10,661 nucleotides of DNA from Patescibacteria group bacterium (GTDB lineage: Bacteria > Patescibacteriota > Patescibacteriia > UBA1558 > GWA2-36-10), in contig JAUPVE010000016.1 in assembly GCA_030917205.1 (NCBI GenBank), positions 1 to 10,661 of the forward strand, given 5' to 3'. This document shows positions 428 to 9,990 of this stretch, piece after piece (the first letter of the stretch is position 1; the number at the start of each line of letters is the position of its first letter). Made by a program: the position numbers and the translations under genes. The notes below the pieces were generated by a model. That model made no database searches, was not told the origin of the DNA, and was given only the letters and a program-made list of their open reading frames with translations.

Positions 428-1558
428 ATGACTAGTAAAATAAAAACTAAAAATAGTATTTACGTCAAAATAATTAGCTTCTTTTTGATCCTAACAATCG
501 GAGCTATTTTTTTGATCCTGCACTTTGCTCTGTCCAAAGCTACTATCAAAATATTTAGCCGTGATGAAAATCAAAATAAACAAATTTTGATCCCCTTACA
601 ATCTGAAAATACTGAAGGCCTAAACTCCGATGTCTTGATTGGTAAAATCCTGAGTGTCGATCTAGAGCTAGAAGCTAGCGCTCCTAGCAACAGCGAGAGT
701 ATCCCTGCTGAATACGCAGGTAGCACTGTCACCATCATCAATAACTACAGCAAAGACCAGCCTCTAGTCAAAACCACACGTTTACTTTCCCCAACTGGTA
801 AAATCTACCGCATTAGTGAAAATGTGAATGTACCAAAAGGTGGCCAAGTCAAAGTCTGGGCCCAAGCTGACCAAGCTGGCTCTGAGTATGTCTCTGAAGC
901 CTTGGACAAGATGACTATCCCCGGCCTCTGGCCCCAGCTACAAGATATGATATTTGCTAAAAGCCCGGATGGCTTCAAACAAGAAAGTCGCCCCGGCTAT
1001 AATGTCAGTAAAGAAAATATTGATACGGCTCAAAATAACTTAATAGCCGAAGCCAAAAAACAAGGTTTGGAAAAAATAAATGAACTCTTGACTGCAGATT
1101 TGAAAATAGATGAAAATAGATTATTTATCAAACAAGAAATATTGAGCTCCAGTGCCGTAGGTGATAATAGCCCAGAAGCCAAAATAAAAGAAAAAGTAAA
1201 AGTATCAGCTTTAGTTTTTGCTACAAGCGATCTATACAAACTAGCGGAAAATAAATTTACTTCCCAGCTGGCTAGTGACCAAAGTGTTGTAGAATTTTTA
1301 ACAGACAAATATAGCTACAAAATATCCGAGATTGATGTAGAAAAAAACACTGCTATCCTCGAAGTCAACCTAGATGCCAAAATAAAATCTAGCAGTCACC
1401 CTTGGCTGATAGACAAAGAAAAATTAGTCGGCCTCAATGCCGAACAAATCAAAGAATACTTGCAAGGAGAGTTTAGTATCAATGAAGCTGAAGTAGAATT
1501 CTTCCCTTTTTGGGTCAAGACTGCTCCCAAACTCAAAGATCATATTATTATTGAGTAA
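428..1558 (+). CDS. Membrane-anchored extracytoplasmic protein, baseplate-J-like domain
   Basis: The protein has 376 residues. A positively charged N-terminus (KIKTK) precedes one hydrophobic segment at about residues 14-36, so the rest should lie outside the membrane. Residues ~92-168 carry a beta-rich pattern (AGSTVTIINN, LVKTTRLLSPTGKIYR, then VPKGGQV, AGSEY and IPGL). This resembles the baseplate-J/gp47-like beta domain often seen in CPR membrane proteins; the comparison is from memory, not a search. The remaining ~200 residues are charged alpha/beta sequence that I do not recognise. The role is unknown; a cell-surface or envelope-spanning function is an inference. The start follows AAGAGAATT, a weak purine-rich ribosome site. 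The gene appears monocistronic, between the dnaE terminator and its own terminator. Confidence 0.7.
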   Translation: MTSKIKTKNSIYVKIISFFLILTIGAIFLILHFALSKATIKIFSRDENQNKQILIPLQSENTEGLNSDVLIGKILSVDLELEASAPSNSESIPAEYAGSTVTIINNYSKDQPLVKTTRLLSPTGKIYRISENVNVPKGGQVKVWAQADQAGSEYVSEALDKMTIPGLWPQLQDMIFAKSPDGFKQESRPGYNVSKENIDTAQNNLIAEAKKQGLEKINELLTADLKIDENRLFIKQEILSSSAVGDNSPEAKIKEKVKVSALVFATSDLYKLAENKFTSQLASDQSVVEFLTDKYSYKISEIDVEKNTAILEVNLDAKIKSSSHPWLIDKEKLVGLNAEQIKEYLQGEFSINEAEVEFFPFWVKTAPKLKDHIIIE

Positions 1559-1561
1559 ATT

Positions 1562-1697
1562 AAAAAGCCCGCAAACTTTTTATCATGTCATTGCGAGCGA
1601 ACGAAGTGAGCGTGGCAATCTACGCTTATAGATTGCTTCGTCGCCTACGGCTCCTCGCAATGACGATAAACCAGTTCAGCGGGCTTTTTCTTTTTTC
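1562..1697 (+). terminator. Terminator split by a hairpin repeat in its loop
   Basis: AAAAAGCCCGC (1562-1572) pairs with GCGGGCTTTTT (1679-1689), and a longer T-rich run follows. Just inside, AACT (1574-1577) pairs with AGTT (1673-1676), and then TTTATC with GATAAA. The 78-bp repeat at 1587-1664 occupies what should be a short loop. The arms may work in both directions, since the left arm is A-rich. Confidence 0.75.
1587..1664. repeat. Hairpin repeat, family A (GTCATTGCGAG ends)
   Basis: Perfect 11-bp terminal inverted repeats, GTCATTGCGAG (1587-1597) and CTCGCAATGAC (1654-1664), flank an inner hairpin GCAATCTA / TAGATTGC (1615-1622 and 1629-1636). It has no coding capacity. The ends match a REP/MITE-like repeat type known in many bacterial genomes. 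Its left half recurs at 7561-7618. Confidence 0.8.
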
Positions 1698-1703
1698 TTT
1701 AAA

Positions 1704-1748
1704 ATAAAAAAAGACCTCGGTACTCACTGATGTGATACTACAGAGGTC
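1704..1748 (-). terminator. Terminator of the minus-strand variable-protein gene
   Basis: On the minus strand, GACCTC (1743-1748) pairs with GAGGTC (1713-1718), with an inner TCAC/GTGA stem, and is followed by seven T. It lies about 45 nt beyond the stop codon of the minus-strand gene, after a separate hairpin. Confidence 0.75.
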
Positions 1749-1750
1749 CA

Positions 1751-1787
1751 CTCATCTTGGAATCACTCCGTCCTAGGACAGAGATGA
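1751..1787 (-). other. Post-stop hairpin, candidate DGR 3' hairpin
   Basis: Read on the minus strand, CTCTGTCC pairs with GGACGGAG over 1766-1783 (8 pairs, one G-T). An outer TCATC/GATGA closure lies at 1752-1756 and 1783-1787. There is no T-tract, so it is not a terminator. Functional DGRs have a hairpin or cruciform just 3' of the variable region that aids homing, and this one starts about 5 nt after the stop codon. That role is an inference. Confidence 0.45.
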
Positions 1788-1791
1788 CTCA

Positions 1792-2415
1792 CTAGCTTTG
1801 CGAAACGACGAAAGCGAAGCCGCGCTCACGATCCCATCGATCGCCGGGGCGGCCATAGTACGCGCCCAGCCAGCGACCACGGCCAATGCGATCGGCATAG
1901 AGCAGGTGCGGATCGCCATCGGAATCCTTGATGGGCTCGTGCATGGTGATGATCCAGATCAGACCCATAGCCTCGATCTCGGCGTCCGTAAACTTATCCC
2001 GGATCAGGCACGCGACCTCGGCGTTGGGCTTGCTCAGCTTCCTGCTGTCAGCATCCTTGCGTATGTTCTTGGTGACACGATCCTTGTCGTTGAAGAGCAT
2101 GCCCTTCAGAACCGTCACCTGGTAGGTGACGCCGTTGGTGGGTACGAAGTCCCGATGGCAGAGCACCTGTTTGACACAGGTACCGATGCCGTAGCCCTTC
2201 TTATAGAAGTGGGCGATCCACTCGGAACCGGACTTGCCGTCCGAGGTGACGGAAAAGTAGATGATGCCGTCCTTCTCGATCCAGGAGCGAGCGGGCTCGG
2301 AGATCACCAGTTCGTCGCGCAGGAACGCTTGGGCACCAGAGACGCCGCCCAGCTTGTTGAGAACCGCCTCAACAAAACCGAACTTGACGTCCGCGTACTT
2401 CATGGTGGTACTCAT
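1792..2415 (-). CDS. Putative DGR-diversified protein, C-type-lectin-like tail
   Basis: This 207-residue protein has no signal peptide or membrane segment. I do not recognise residues 1-~120, which are mixed alpha/beta, with SDGKSGSEWIAHFY near the middle. The tail (~150-207) has the layout of a DGR variable domain: MHEPI, SDGDP, then RWL, AY, RW, and a fixed GFAFVVSQ end. Between these, candidate variable residues H170, Y173, D175, I177, G178, R179, G184, Y187, D192, D195 and R198 all use NNY codons. That is the outcome expected when adenines of AAY codons in a template repeat are mutagenised. There is no Asn in the last 43 residues. Start ATG 2415 is chosen because AGAGGA lies 7 nt upstream; the longer frame from TTG 2490 runs through leader hairpins. 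By hand count it is ~60% GC on sampled stretches against ~40% around it, suggesting transfer. No reverse transcriptase or template repeat is present, so diversification would act in trans. The gene itself is secure; the DGR role is probable. Confidence 0.68.
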   Translation of the reverse strand: MSTTMKYADVKFGFVEAVLNKLGGVSGAQAFLRDELVISEPARSWIEKDGIIYFSVTSDGKSGSEWIAHFYKKGYGIGTCVKQVLCHRDFVPTNGVTYQVTVLKGMLFNDKDRVTKNIRKDADSRKLSKPNAEVACLIRDKFTDAEIEAMGLIWIITMHEPIKDSDGDPHLLYADRIGRGRWLGAYYGRPGDRWDRERGFAFVVSQS

Positions 2416-2422
2416 GACAAGA

Positions 2423-2428
2423 TCCTCT
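2423..2428 (-). promoter_or_regulatory. Strong Shine-Dalgarno of the variable-protein gene
   Basis: AGAGGA on the minus strand lies 7 nt before ATG 2415. It decides the start codon and stands out because most other genes in the window have only A/T-rich leaders. Confidence 0.7.
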
Positions 2429-2516
2429 CTCTGACCATTGGTCAGAATTGTTCTCTTGCCTAATAGACAAGAGGCCACGACTTGTGGCAAGAAAATGCCA
2501 GAGGACCACCTGATTT

Positions 2517-2600
2517 GGTAGTCATAGCCAGAAAAGGCCGAAAATGTGTTCCCTCGACTTCGCTCGGGACGATCTTCGGTCGCTTTTGGCTATAACTACC
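2517..2600. repeat. 84-bp inverted repeat within the leader
   Basis: Arms GGTAGT-C-ATAGCCA and TGGCTAT-A-ACTACC pair at 13 of 14 positions as DNA. As minus-strand RNA the odd pair becomes G-U. Inner CCGAA/TTCGG and TCCC/GGGA stems follow. The core carries a CTCGACTTCGCTCGGGAC word typical of dispersed bacterial hairpin repeats. Confidence 0.7.
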
Positions 2601-2642
2601 TCGTTTTCGCAAGTATTTTAAGGTACTTTAAAGTAATATAGT

Positions 2643-2671
2643 AGTATAACATATATATCCTATTTTGTCAA
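2643..2671 (-). promoter_or_regulatory. Consensus sigma70 promoter for the minus-strand unit
   Basis: On the minus strand a perfect TTGACA (2666-2671) and TATACT (2643-2648) are separated by exactly 17 nt. Start is expected near 2636. Its -35 box is only 2 nt from the -35 box of the divergent thrS promoter. Confidence 0.8.
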
Positions 2672-2673
2672 TA

Positions 2674-2702
2674 TTAACAAGCAAGCTACATTAATATATA
2701 AT
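2674..2702 (+). promoter_or_regulatory. Promoter of the T-box thrS-guaB-miaB operon
   Basis: TTAACA (2674-2679) and a perfect TATAAT (2697-2702) are separated by 17 nt. The expected start, ~2709, falls just before the first base-paired segment of the T-box leader, which supports both calls. Confidence 0.75.
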
Positions 2703-2710
2703 TATAAACG

Positions 2711-2892
2711 CTTTAGACGATTGGAGTGATCACCAGACATTCTCCATAAATAAAATGGATCGAGCTCAGCTCGACTAAGTCTAAAAAAAGAGTGCTACCC
2801 TACGCCAAGGCTACGGGTAGAACTTGGGTGGAACCATCCCCTATTATATACAAGGGATCCCAAGACAAATCTGTCTTGGGTTATTTTAATTT
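2711..2892 (+). promoter_or_regulatory. T-box riboswitch, threonyl-tRNA responsive, transcriptional
   Basis: The stem I base is TTTAGAC (2712-2718) with GTCTAAA (2779-2785). A stem III-like hairpin is CTACCC/GGGTAG (2795-2820). The antiterminator is canonical: CTTGGG (2823-2828) with CCCAAG (2859-2864), a 7-nt bulge TGGAACC (2829-2835), and an upper stem ATCCC/GGGAT (2836-2840 and 2854-2858). The competing terminator CCCAAGAC/GTCTTGGG (2859-2880) is followed by TTATTTTAATTT and shares the CCCAAG arm. TGGA in the bulge would pair with the 3' end of a tRNA whose discriminator base is U. Threonine codons in stem I are ACT (2774-2776), two bases before the 3' base helix, and ACC (2732-2734); I cannot decide which is the specifier. 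The downstream thrS gene fits tRNA-Thr sensing. Confidence 0.88.
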
Positions 2893-2905
2893 CAAATATT
2901 AATTT

Positions 2906-2963
2906 TACCCCCTCTCTTTCTCCCCCTAAATTAGGGGGAGATGTCCGCAGGACAGTGGGGGTA
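2906..2963. repeat. Palindromic repeat between T-box and thrS
   Basis: TACCCCC (2906-2912) and GGGGGTA (2957-2963) form the outer arms, and CTCCCCCTAA / TTAGGGGGAG around A2930 forms a perfect inner palindrome. The ATGTCCGCAGGACAG stretch follows the inner palindrome. It resembles dispersed C-rich/TTAG hairpin repeats of other genomes. It sits between the riboswitch terminator and the start codon. Confidence 0.65.
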
Positions 2964-2976
2964 TACAAAAAAACAT

Positions 2977-4746
2977 ATGAACAAAGAAGAACAATTGCAT
3001 CAAATTCGTCACTCCCTGTCACACATCATGGCTATGGCCGTTTTAAAAAAATTTCCATCAGCCAAACTTGGTATTGGCCCAGTGATTGATAATGGATTTT
3101 ATTATGACTTTATTCTACCAGAAAAATTATCAGACACTGACTTACCAGAGATAGAAGAAAGCATGCGCGAGATCATAAAACAAAATATTGATTTTACTAA
3201 ATCTTCTGCTACTCGCGATGAAGCTCTCAAAAAAGCTCAAAGTAAAAATCAAAACTTTAAAGAAGAATTAATCAACGACTTGCCAGCTGACGAAGAAATT
3301 ACTTTTTATGCTTCTGGTGATTTTGAAGACTTGTGTGCTGGACCACACATCAAAAACTCTAAAGACATACCACTTGATGGTTTCAAGCTCACTCACCTAG
3401 CTGGTGCCTACTGGCATGGTGATGAAAAACGCGAAATGATGACTCGTATTTATGGTCTAGCTTTTTTAAATCGCAAAGATCTGGCTGTACATATTAATAT
3501 GCTTGAGCAAGCCAAACTCCGCGATCACCGCAAACTGGGAAAAGATTTAGAATTATTTACTTTTTCTGACATCGTTGGCAAAGGCTTACCACTCTGGACA
3601 GCTAAAGGAGCAGCCATCAGACGCGAGCTAGAAAGATTCATAGTTGATGAAGAAATAAAACGTAACTATCAGCATGTTTATACTCCTGATATTGCCAAAG
3701 TAGACTTGTACAAAAAATCTGGACACTACCCCTACTACAAAGACTCCATGTATGCTCCAATCAAGATTGACGATGAAGAGTTCATGCTCCGACCAATGTC
3801 CTGTCCTCATCATTTTGAATTATACTTGAGCAAGCCCAGAAGCTACCGTGAGTTGCCTATGCGCATTGCCGAGCTAGCTAAACTCTATCGCTACGAACAA
3901 TCTGGCGAGCTCACCGGACTCATCCGCGTCAGAAGTTTTTGCTTAGCCGATGCGCACATTATCTGCGCTGACAATGAGCAAGCCAAACAAGAAGTCAAAG
4001 GCGCTCTAGATTTGATTGAATATATTGCTAATACTTTTGGTTTAGAATTTGGCAAAGATTTTACCTATCGCTTGTCTTTGGGTAATAGACAGGATGAAAA
4101 AAAATACTACAAAGACGACCAAGCTTGGGACATGGCTGAAAATACTCTCAAAGAAGTATTGCAAGAAATAAAGCGTGACTTTGTGGCAGTAGTTGATGAA
4201 GCCTCATTTTATGGACCAAAAATAGATATCCAAATGAAAAATGTCATTGGCAAAGAAGATACAGCTTTTACAGTCCAATACGACTTTGTCATGCCCGAAA
4301 GATTCAATCTAGTTCACACTGATAAAAATGGGCAAGAGAAAAAAGGTATTGTCATCCATCGCTCCTCTGTCGGCGCTCTGGAACGAGTCATTGCTTTCTT
4401 GATCGAACACTACTCTGGCAATTTCCCAGTCTGGCTCTCCCCTGTCCAAGTCAAAATCATCAGCGTCGGCGAAACTCACATTGATTTTTGTCACCAAATC
4501 GCCAATGATTTTAAAAATGAAAATATTCGTGTAGAAATTGATGAAAGTGCAGAAACTGTCGGTAATAAAATCCGCAAATCTTCCCACGAAAAAGTTCCTT
4601 ATGTCCTAGTCATTGGTGACAAAGAAATGGGCTCTGAAGATTTAGCAGTCCGTGTGCGTGGACAAAAAGATTTACTTAATATCGACAAACAAAAATTTAT
4701 CACCAAAATAAAAACTCAAATCAAAGATCGTGATCTAACTCTCTAA
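2977..4746 (+). CDS. thrS: Threonine--tRNA ligase lacking the TGS domain
   Basis: This cytosolic class II synthetase charges tRNA-Thr. Numbered from ATG 2977 (589 residues), the editing domain comes first: HSLSH (12-16) and CAGPH (120-124) supply the HxxxH and CxxxH metal/editing residues. The catalytic core follows, with the zinc ligands C276 (RPMSCPHH), H327 (DAHIIC) and H461 (VIHRSSVGALER, motif 3). The last ~110 residues form the anticodon-binding domain. The N-terminal TGS domain of bacterial ThrRS (about 60 residues, E. coli total 642) is absent. The frame opens 12 codons earlier at ATG 2941, but those codons come from the palindromic repeat, so 2977 is preferred. No clear SD precedes either start. 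It is the first gene of an operon under T-box control; guaB follows after 14 nt. Confidence 0.95.
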   Translation: MNKEEQLHQIRHSLSHIMAMAVLKKFPSAKLGIGPVIDNGFYYDFILPEKLSDTDLPEIEESMREIIKQNIDFTKSSATRDEALKKAQSKNQNFKEELINDLPADEEITFYASGDFEDLCAGPHIKNSKDIPLDGFKLTHLAGAYWHGDEKREMMTRIYGLAFLNRKDLAVHINMLEQAKLRDHRKLGKDLELFTFSDIVGKGLPLWTAKGAAIRRELERFIVDEEIKRNYQHVYTPDIAKVDLYKKSGHYPYYKDSMYAPIKIDDEEFMLRPMSCPHHFELYLSKPRSYRELPMRIAELAKLYRYEQSGELTGLIRVRSFCLADAHIICADNEQAKQEVKGALDLIEYIANTFGLEFGKDFTYRLSLGNRQDEKKYYKDDQAWDMAENTLKEVLQEIKRDFVAVVDEASFYGPKIDIQMKNVIGKEDTAFTVQYDFVMPERFNLVHTDKNGQEKKGIVIHRSSVGALERVIAFLIEHYSGNFPVWLSPVQVKIISVGETHIDFCHQIANDFKNENIRVEIDESAETVGNKIRKSSHEKVPYVLVIGDKEMGSEDLAVRVRGQKDLLNIDKQKFITKIKTQIKDRDLTL

Positions 4747-7507: not shown

Positions 7508-7815
7508 TTTGCCGTATAGTTAGAAAGTAAATCTAAGCGCCCGCTGACAGCTTGCTCTCTTCATTGCGAGCGAACGGAGTAAGCGTGGCAATCTACGAGC
7601 TTGTAGATTGCTTCGTCGTCGAGCTGAGCTCGACGAAGTGATAGAATCTACAGCTTAAATTCACACCGTAGATTCTATCGGTCGCTCCGCTCCCTCCAGA
7701 ATGACAATATAGCCAACACTCTTTTTATATTTACTTTTGTAATAATTAGAGATAAACTGACTGTAGGTGCTGGTAGAAACTATTAGAAATAACAAATAAA
7801 ATTTAATAAAAACAT
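7508..7815. other. Intergenic region after miaB
   Basis: Nearly half of this 308-bp gap is the chimeric repeat at 7561-7705. The flanks (7508-7560 and 7706-7815) hold no gene, tRNA or clear terminator. The A/T-rich right part should contain the promoter of the protease gene, but I see no convincing -35/-10 pair. Confidence 0.6.
7561..7705. repeat. Chimeric hairpin repeat (family A left, family B right)
   Basis: The left ~58 bp match the family A unit at 1588-1643 closely (TCATTGCGAGCG, then GGCAATCTA / TAGATTGC). Instead of ending in CTCGCAATGAC, it passes through the palindrome TCGAGCTGAGCTCGA (7619-7633). It continues as family B: GATAGAATC / GATTCTATC (7640-7648 and 7671-7679) and the family B end TCCAGAATGAC (7695-7705). 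Confidence 0.75.
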
Positions 7816-8559
7816 ATGAATTGGAATCAAATTGTCAACAAAATAAAACCACATGTTGTAAAAATAAAAACACCAACAGGGAGTGGAACCGGTTTTTTAT
7901 TTATGTATAACCACGATAAATCATGGTGCGGAATTGCTACTGCTAATCATGTAGTAAGTGATATCGACGAATGGAAGCAGCCATTAAAATTTATACACCA
8001 AAGTTCAAATAAAATAGAACATTATATAGAAGATAAGAATCGCGTAATAATTTGCGATCCCTCAAATGATTCTGCCGTGATACTATTCCACAAACCAGAC
8101 GAACTCATTCTCCCAACAGAACCAATAAGACTTCGCCCATTGGAAGAAAAATTAGATATTGGCTCAGAAGTTGGATGGGTTGGTTATCCATATTTGGGAG
8201 AAAATACACTTTGTTTTTTTTCTGGAAATATCAGTGCACGTAATGACGAAAAAAATCATTATCTTGTCGATGGTGTAGCAATAAACGGAGTAAGTGGTGG
8301 CCCAGTTTTATATTCATCTGAAACTAATGGTGTAGAAATAATAGGAATTATGTGTGCATACATGGCAAACAGAGCGACAGGCTCTACGCTACCTGGATTG
8401 TCAGTTGCTCAGGACGTCTTTCATCTCCACAAATCAGTAGCCATGATCAAAGACATAGATGAGGCTAGAAGAAAAAAGGAAGATTTAAAAAAAGAATCTA
8501 AAAACGATGAAACTGTAAAAATACAAGAAGATCAACCAACACCACAGACAACGCAATAA
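7816..8559 (+). CDS. Cytosolic trypsin-like serine protease
   Basis: The protein has 247 residues. A chymotrypsin-fold protease domain spans ~10-205, with GSGTGFLF, the catalytic His H45 (TANHVV), Asp D85 (DPSNDSAVILF; D81 is the alternative) and Ser S160 in NGVSGGPV. The order and spacing fit an HtrA/S1-type triad. There is no signal peptide or membrane segment, so it should act in the cytoplasm, unlike most HtrA proteins. No PDZ domain follows; instead residues ~214-247 are a charged, probably disordered or coiled tail (KKEDLKKESK, then PTPQTTQ). The start ATG follows an A-rich leader without an SD. Codon choice (ACA, GGA, AGA) differs from the housekeeping neighbours, suggesting acquisition. 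The next gene begins 19 nt on and may be its partner. Substrate and role are unknown; defence or regulated proteolysis is speculative. Confidence 0.75.
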   Translation: MNWNQIVNKIKPHVVKIKTPTGSGTGFLFMYNHDKSWCGIATANHVVSDIDEWKQPLKFIHQSSNKIEHYIEDKNRVIICDPSNDSAVILFHKPDELILPTEPIRLRPLEEKLDIGSEVGWVGYPYLGENTLCFFSGNISARNDEKNHYLVDGVAINGVSGGPVLYSSETNGVEIIGIMCAYMANRATGSTLPGLSVAQDVFHLHKSVAMIKDIDEARRKKEDLKKESKNDETVKIQEDQPTPQTTQ

Positions 8560-9841: not shown

Positions 9842-9990
9842 AAAACCGCCAAACATTGTCATTCTGGAGCGTAGTCGAGCTCAGCTCGACGAAGCGATAG
9901 AATCCAGCAATTTAAATTGACCTAGATTCTATCAGTCGCTCCGCTCCTTCCAGAATGACGAAGATAAAATAGGCGATTTTTTATTTTATA
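9841..9990 (+). terminator. miaA terminator with a repeat in its loop
   Basis: AAAAACCGCC (9841-9850) pairs with GGCGATTTTT (9972-9981) with one mismatch, and T-rich sequence follows. The family B repeat (9858-9959) fills the loop, the same arrangement as at 1562-1697. Confidence 0.65.
9858..9959. repeat. Hairpin repeat, family B (GTCATTCTGGA ends)
   Basis: Perfect 11-bp ends GTCATTCTGGA (9858-9868) and TCCAGAATGAC (9949-9959) enclose GATAGAATC / GATTCTATC (9896-9904 and 9925-9933). The palindrome TCGAGCTCAGCTCGA lies at 9875-9889. It is non-coding and related to the right part of 7561-7705. Confidence 0.8.

Follow-up and report, generated by a model that had tools for sequence, protein, structure and literature searches.

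The window analyzed here, a whole contig of 10,661 bases (G000:C17), probably carries a DGR target gene that is now stranded and most likely fixed, and that would be expressed through a structured 5' leader. The last 43 codons of this target would be the product of adenine-directed mutagenic copying, with a template repeat (TR) as the source, in a locus whose order of leader, target, terminator, TR and reverse transcriptase (RT) is seen in the family and is presumed for the window copy. The target appears to be stranded here in that the assembled genome keeps neither TR nor RT, and its product, probably a binding protein, would today most likely be a fixed variant. Expression would start at a promoter that looks strong and pass through a structured 5' leader common to DGR targets of unrelated sequence, and the leader may set the amount of variable protein via mRNA stability or translation. 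It is this common leader that seems to be new here; no description of a leader on DGR targets was found in the titles and abstracts listed from the open-licence papers searched. The leader offers a handle on the function and expression of DGR targets in Patescibacteria. It also raises a testable question, namely why hypervariable proteins that are unrelated in sequence are encoded by genes starting with the same fold.

The target gene and its family

The target gene (1792-2415, minus strand, stop codon included; start ATG at 2413-2415) encodes a protein of 207 residues and belongs to a large Patescibacteria family of DGR targets, relatives of which are accompanied by TR and RT. The genome comprises 667,507 bases in 108 contigs and is 68.8% complete; its assignment to Patescibacteria follows from the names of its relatives. 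As the preliminary description of this DNA had noted, the neighbours of the gene are housekeeping genes, namely those for threonyl-tRNA synthetase, a radical-SAM/TRAM protein and IPP transferase; a further neighbouring ORF is read as a putative IMP dehydrogenase. The same description called the gene GC-rich, and at 59% its GC indeed exceeds the 39% of the remaining window, as its GC3 of 79% exceeds the 35-42% of five neighbouring genes. A trypsin-like peptidase ORF (PF13365, E 1.5e-9) also lies amid housekeeping genes, at 7816-8559 on the plus strand.

Pfam (E <= 1), NCBIfam and PHROGs (both E <= 0.001) gave no match to the 207-residue protein. A protein search with 1257 candidates returned 1170 homologues at E <= 1e-3, and a scan of genome contigs gave 88 relatives, the best 80 loci of which were used as the family set. 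An alignment of 40 sequences was made from the query and 39 sequences picked from 120 homologues among the matches listed. Phage and plasmid records gave no protein match to the target, and an origin from either was dropped. Two IMG/VR contigs encode relatives of the target. In the congener G001, a gene for a 376-residue protein and the leader region of thrS are syntenic with the window; because two other ORFs lie between them at that point, no empty insertion site is readable, and the attempt to place an insertion boundary was abandoned.

The variable region

The variable region (VR) spans codons 164-206 (1798-1926, minus strand) and aligns with the TRs of relatives. The tail pattern described from the letters is real: the 11 named codons of this C-terminal stretch are all NNY, and residues 164-206 include no Asn. 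NNY codons make up 65% of residues 1-159 of the same gene, and the chance of 11/11 is about 0.008 for positions that were picked after looking; taken alone, the NNY pattern is modest evidence. The evidence from family variability is much stronger. In the 40-sequence alignment, the seven positions that vary most, residues 1-7 left aside (195, 198, 173, 170, 177, 192 and 184), are all among those listed beforehand, and the mean entropy is 2.69 bits at the listed positions against 0.79 elsewhere. Positions 189 and 168, which were absent from that list, are variable too.

DGR loci in relatives

A search with the window protein produced a second match of 43-44 residues downstream of the gene in five genomes (G007, G009, G022, G061 and G074). 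The loci of relatives run in the order leader, target, terminator, TR and RT, with the TR about 340 bp downstream of the target gene and a DGR reverse transcriptase after it. These RTs bear LPLGN[LF]TSQ and usually also YADDF, and one that was scanned against PHROGs matched a reverse-transcriptase family (7.8e-105). VR/TR pairs were chosen by hand in 39 loci, with L049 and L061 omitted for their cut TRs, and three pairs were dropped for unequal length. In the 36 gap-free pairs, mismatches occur at 542/930 template adenines against 42/2736 other template bases (C 11/959, G 9/994, T 22/783), that is, TR/VR mismatch in relatives of the same family is adenine-specific. The earlier proposal of a DGR target is thus borne out in the family, and for the window copy it rests on homology, because no TR was found at the locus or in its own assembly. 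The window VR differs from the TR of its nearest relative (L032) at 16/24 adenines and 10/75 other bases. Against 37 TRs pooled it differs at 655/953 adenines and at 684/2710 non-adenine bases, the latter number being large because no TR from its own species is known.

Sixty-six family loci have at least 2.3 kb downstream; TR and RT are both present in 35 of them and both missing in 26, while three have RT only and two TR only. Two labels in this count are off, both outside the 26 orphan loci: the 'TR' of L080 is the VR of a second target, and L105, entered as RT only, has a TR. NNY codons are kept at 336/341 positions in 31 active loci and at 233/242 in 22 orphan loci (four loci in each group were unscorable). 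Since most orphans keep their NNY codons too, retention in the VR dates nothing, and dating of DGR loss through codon decay, for which active and orphan loci gave no clear difference, was given up.

A structured 5' leader upstream of the target

A promoter-like site can be read at 2643-2671 on the minus strand, with TTGACA (2671-2666), a 17-base spacer and TATACT (2648-2643), and comparable sites are found ahead of the leader in many relatives. The structured 5' leader occupies 2514-2626 on the same strand, supported by covariance model, covariation and fold, and its main hairpin has arms at 2600-2584 and 2539-2517. A folded leader had been suggested from the sequence, and its fold indeed scores z = -6.05 against shuffles. 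The sequences upstream of the target in relatives combine a promoter-like site and a ribosome-binding region with a conserved stretch and a hairpin of the type GGTCATAGCC...GGCTATGACC. The region upstream of the target in the window also matched, among a few others, L165, the DGR locus of G001, which has a different target protein.

In a MAFFT alignment of 32 sequences, 18 of 21 leader pairs have changed on both sides and none of 500 shuffles reaches any of five covariation measures. Pairing holds in 93.5% of the cells of the leader alignment and in no more than 46.4% once the structure is slid, although this structure was derived from the same alignment and is therefore favoured over the slid versions. 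A covariance model (R1) built from 27 training sequences, with the window and G001 left out, finds the window leader upstream of the start codon at 43.0 bits (E 1.1e-8) and the G001 leader at 58.4 bits. Rfam 15 has no match at gathering score anywhere in the window, its leader included, and none at the leaders of five other loci, and identity with a known RNA family was rejected; positions 1500-3000 of the window gave nothing beyond a miRNA family match of 19.5 bits (E 0.94). The tip of the window hairpin (about 2543-2571, minus strand) has an extra stretch that is missing from three compared leaders and that resembles, by eye, the palindromic repeats of the genome.

Many leaders start with GTTCTTTGATAA, which resembles boxA. 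With a simple pattern, a boxA-like site is found upstream of the 16S gene in three of eight genomes (G001, G074 and G027) and in none of the other five, own genome included. Because there is no consistent shared boxA motif, we make no claim of antitermination for the leader. In G040, another boxA-like site was seen by eye just after a promoter-like site.

The leader across the family and the class

R1 matches at most 420 bases upstream of the target in 58 of the 80 family loci, while 18 are without a match and four have no room for one. Since 27 of the 58 leader-positive loci trained R1, the count among the other loci is 31/53. The leader is present in 26/35 active and 15/26 orphan loci. Same-strand matches in the 80 loci number 59; the only one that is not upstream of a target belongs to L061, where it lies between a cut TR and another ORF. 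L061 (2552-4638) holds a tandem pair of targets with one leader each and the cut TR in between.

Class-wide, the leader is found at E <= 0.001 in 39/237 genomes, and one locus each was examined from 30 of these 39 (L190 and L193 are also R1 training loci). A DGR-type target follows the leader in 28/30 loci. Fifteen of the 30, among them L191 with 13 mismatches at other bases too and the short L217, are followed by a TR whose mismatches are biased towards adenines; the proteins of thirteen more share BLASTP clusters with TR-bearing targets. Behind the leader of L195 there is a broken member of the window's family, and behind that of L199 a 397-residue ORF unlike a target. Three groups without BLASTP link at 1e-3 make up the 28 targets, and two of these groups are small (two loci and one locus). 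RT occurs in 23/39 leader-bearing genomes against 65/198 others (one-sided Fisher p = 0.0021, uncorrected for kinship). In the congener, L165 (4917-7591) is a complete DGR with the same leader and another target type, of 186 residues, in which 18/33 TR adenines and 0/84 other bases are changed between TR and VR. In G013, an Rfam LOOT RNA (L210 2331-2444, minus strand, 74.3 bits) lies upstream of a leader and DGR target.

The genome of the window itself has a second leader, on contig G000:C79 (L219, 10306-10389, 60.8 bits), that is nearly identical to the first over the conserved stretch and the hairpin arms. The gene behind it (10436-11062) encodes 208 residues without BLASTP link to the window protein. 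A relative of this second target in G013 has an adjacent TR, with 23/30 adenines and 1/90 other bases changed; no TR for the second target itself was found in its own assembly. The same contig carries a 132-residue ORF (L219 13467-13865, minus strand), GC-rich by eye, which is near neither leader match.

We think it fairly likely that a dedicated structured leader is the common expression module of Patescibacteria for DGR-diversified proteins, including those without TR or RT, and that it places a dispersed repertoire under one control. A search for the leader is independent of RT and TR and finds targets, among them orphans, that an RT-based search would miss. The conserved hairpin could instead act as DNA, as a recombination or mobile-element site or a feature of the promoter region. 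Covariation does not distinguish single-stranded DNA from RNA, the hairpin comes close to a palindrome and R1 also matches the opposite strand, and the targets are distributed patchily (a match in 22/91 relatives). However, 58 of the 59 same-strand matches stand in the upstream interval given above and the exception precedes another ORF, a promoter-like site comes ahead of the leader in many loci, and the 3' side of the targets gave no hairpin of the leader kind. We therefore consider a role as DNA unlikely.

Stranded or served in trans

No RT was found in the genome of the window with PF00078 or an 18-sequence RT profile, and no TR was found in the assembly by protein or DNA search. The RT near the target that marks a complete DGR is thus missing from the contig, where the absence of RT and TR had been noted before, and from the genome as assembled, but with the genome 68.8% complete, failure to find RT and TR carries little weight. 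Class-wide, an RT at E <= 1e-40 is present in 88/237 genomes and absent in 15/38 leader-bearing genomes other than that of the window; given these 15 genomes and the 26/66 loci above, loss or lack of RT is common. The 26 orphan loci sit in 24 genomes, 11 of which have an RT by profile (one weak), and a family-type TR elsewhere in the genome is found in one of the 24 (G104). One orphan VR in G104 (L084), set against a TR from elsewhere in that genome, is changed at 20/34 adenines and 4/99 other bases, and this does look like service in trans. A second orphan VR of G104 fits that TR poorly, differing at 13/34 adenines and 12/98 other bases.

The main rival to a stranded target is an active one served in trans, whose VR would still be diversified by a TR and an RT encoded outside the assembled contigs. 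The assembly is short of about 31% of the genome, RT is present in more than half of the leader-bearing genomes (23/39), the congener has an RT with another target, and L084 provides a likely example; service in trans has also been argued for Thiohalocapsa, in the passages considered from PMC10907252. On the other hand, G104 is alone among the orphan-bearing genomes in having a family-type TR elsewhere, though 11 have RT, and in the assembly of the window's own genome no TR is seen for either of its two targets, which differ in sequence from each other. From the orphan counts and the single case of G104, we therefore favour a stranded target and regard service in trans as possible but doubtful. 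The preliminary description accordingly stands in its observations and in its core, the DGR target, while service in trans, which it had proposed, is unsupported: the search of the assembled genome for a near-copy of the VR and an RT found neither. It is most improbable that ordinary diversifying selection or recombination shaped the hypervariable tail with no DGR. Such an origin would fit a locus without TR or RT, and the NNY codons by themselves could be due to chance at the level given above, but in relatives the same codons differ from the adjacent TR almost only at adenines; judging from these alignments, an origin without a DGR is already refuted for the family.

Comparison with known systems

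DGRs of Patescibacteria/CPR (clade 2 of Roux et al. 2021, PMC8144416) resemble the stranded target described here in that, in the passages considered, their targets are cell-encoded, have no recognised domains and carry a C-terminal adenine-biased VR. The likeness concerns features of the target; the window copy, unlike those DGRs, has no TR or RT in reach. The same passages describe no leader, in contrast to the window target, and state that the authors' own approach would miss remote targets. The remote or incomplete DGR loci of Thiohalocapsa PB-PSB1 are, as far as the passages considered from PMC10907252 describe them, alike in having targets whose own locus contains neither RT nor TR. There, however, distant TRs match some VRs at all non-adenine sites, whereas no TR is known for the window VR, and both the taxa and the target types are different. 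Among the structured RNAs of Rfam 15, many cis-regulatory RNAs share with the leader a conserved covarying 5' hairpin, although none matches it.

Downstream hairpins and other elements of the window

A short hairpin follows the VR at 1766-1783 (minus strand), with a 7-bp stem that includes one G-T pair and the loop CTAG; the DNA fold of 1690-1800 has z = -3.18. Like the hairpin/cruciform of Bordetella phage BPP-1, as described in the passages considered from Guo et al. 2011 (PMC3240598), it closely follows the VR and has a short stem and a loop of four nucleotides, but the window loop is not GRNA. RNAalifold predicts no pairs among the post-VR stretches of 26 relatives, and a conserved structure at this place was dropped from consideration. 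Further on, the same fold takes in a terminator-like hairpin (GACCTC...GAGGTC) and T run, read from the sequence at 1705-1748 (minus strand).

The leader of threonyl-tRNA synthetase (2697-2930, plus strand) looks by eye like a T-box riboswitch, with GGGTGGAACC and then a terminator hairpin. It has no Rfam match at gathering score, and 2697-2816 is 80% identical to the congener. Palindrome-rich, REP-like intergenic repeats of the GCGAGCGAACGAAGTGAGCGTGGCAATCTA type occur at 1587-1622 and 7560-7595, with similar ones seen by eye at about 9860-9960; the repeat has two copies with at most three mismatches, where none is expected by chance.
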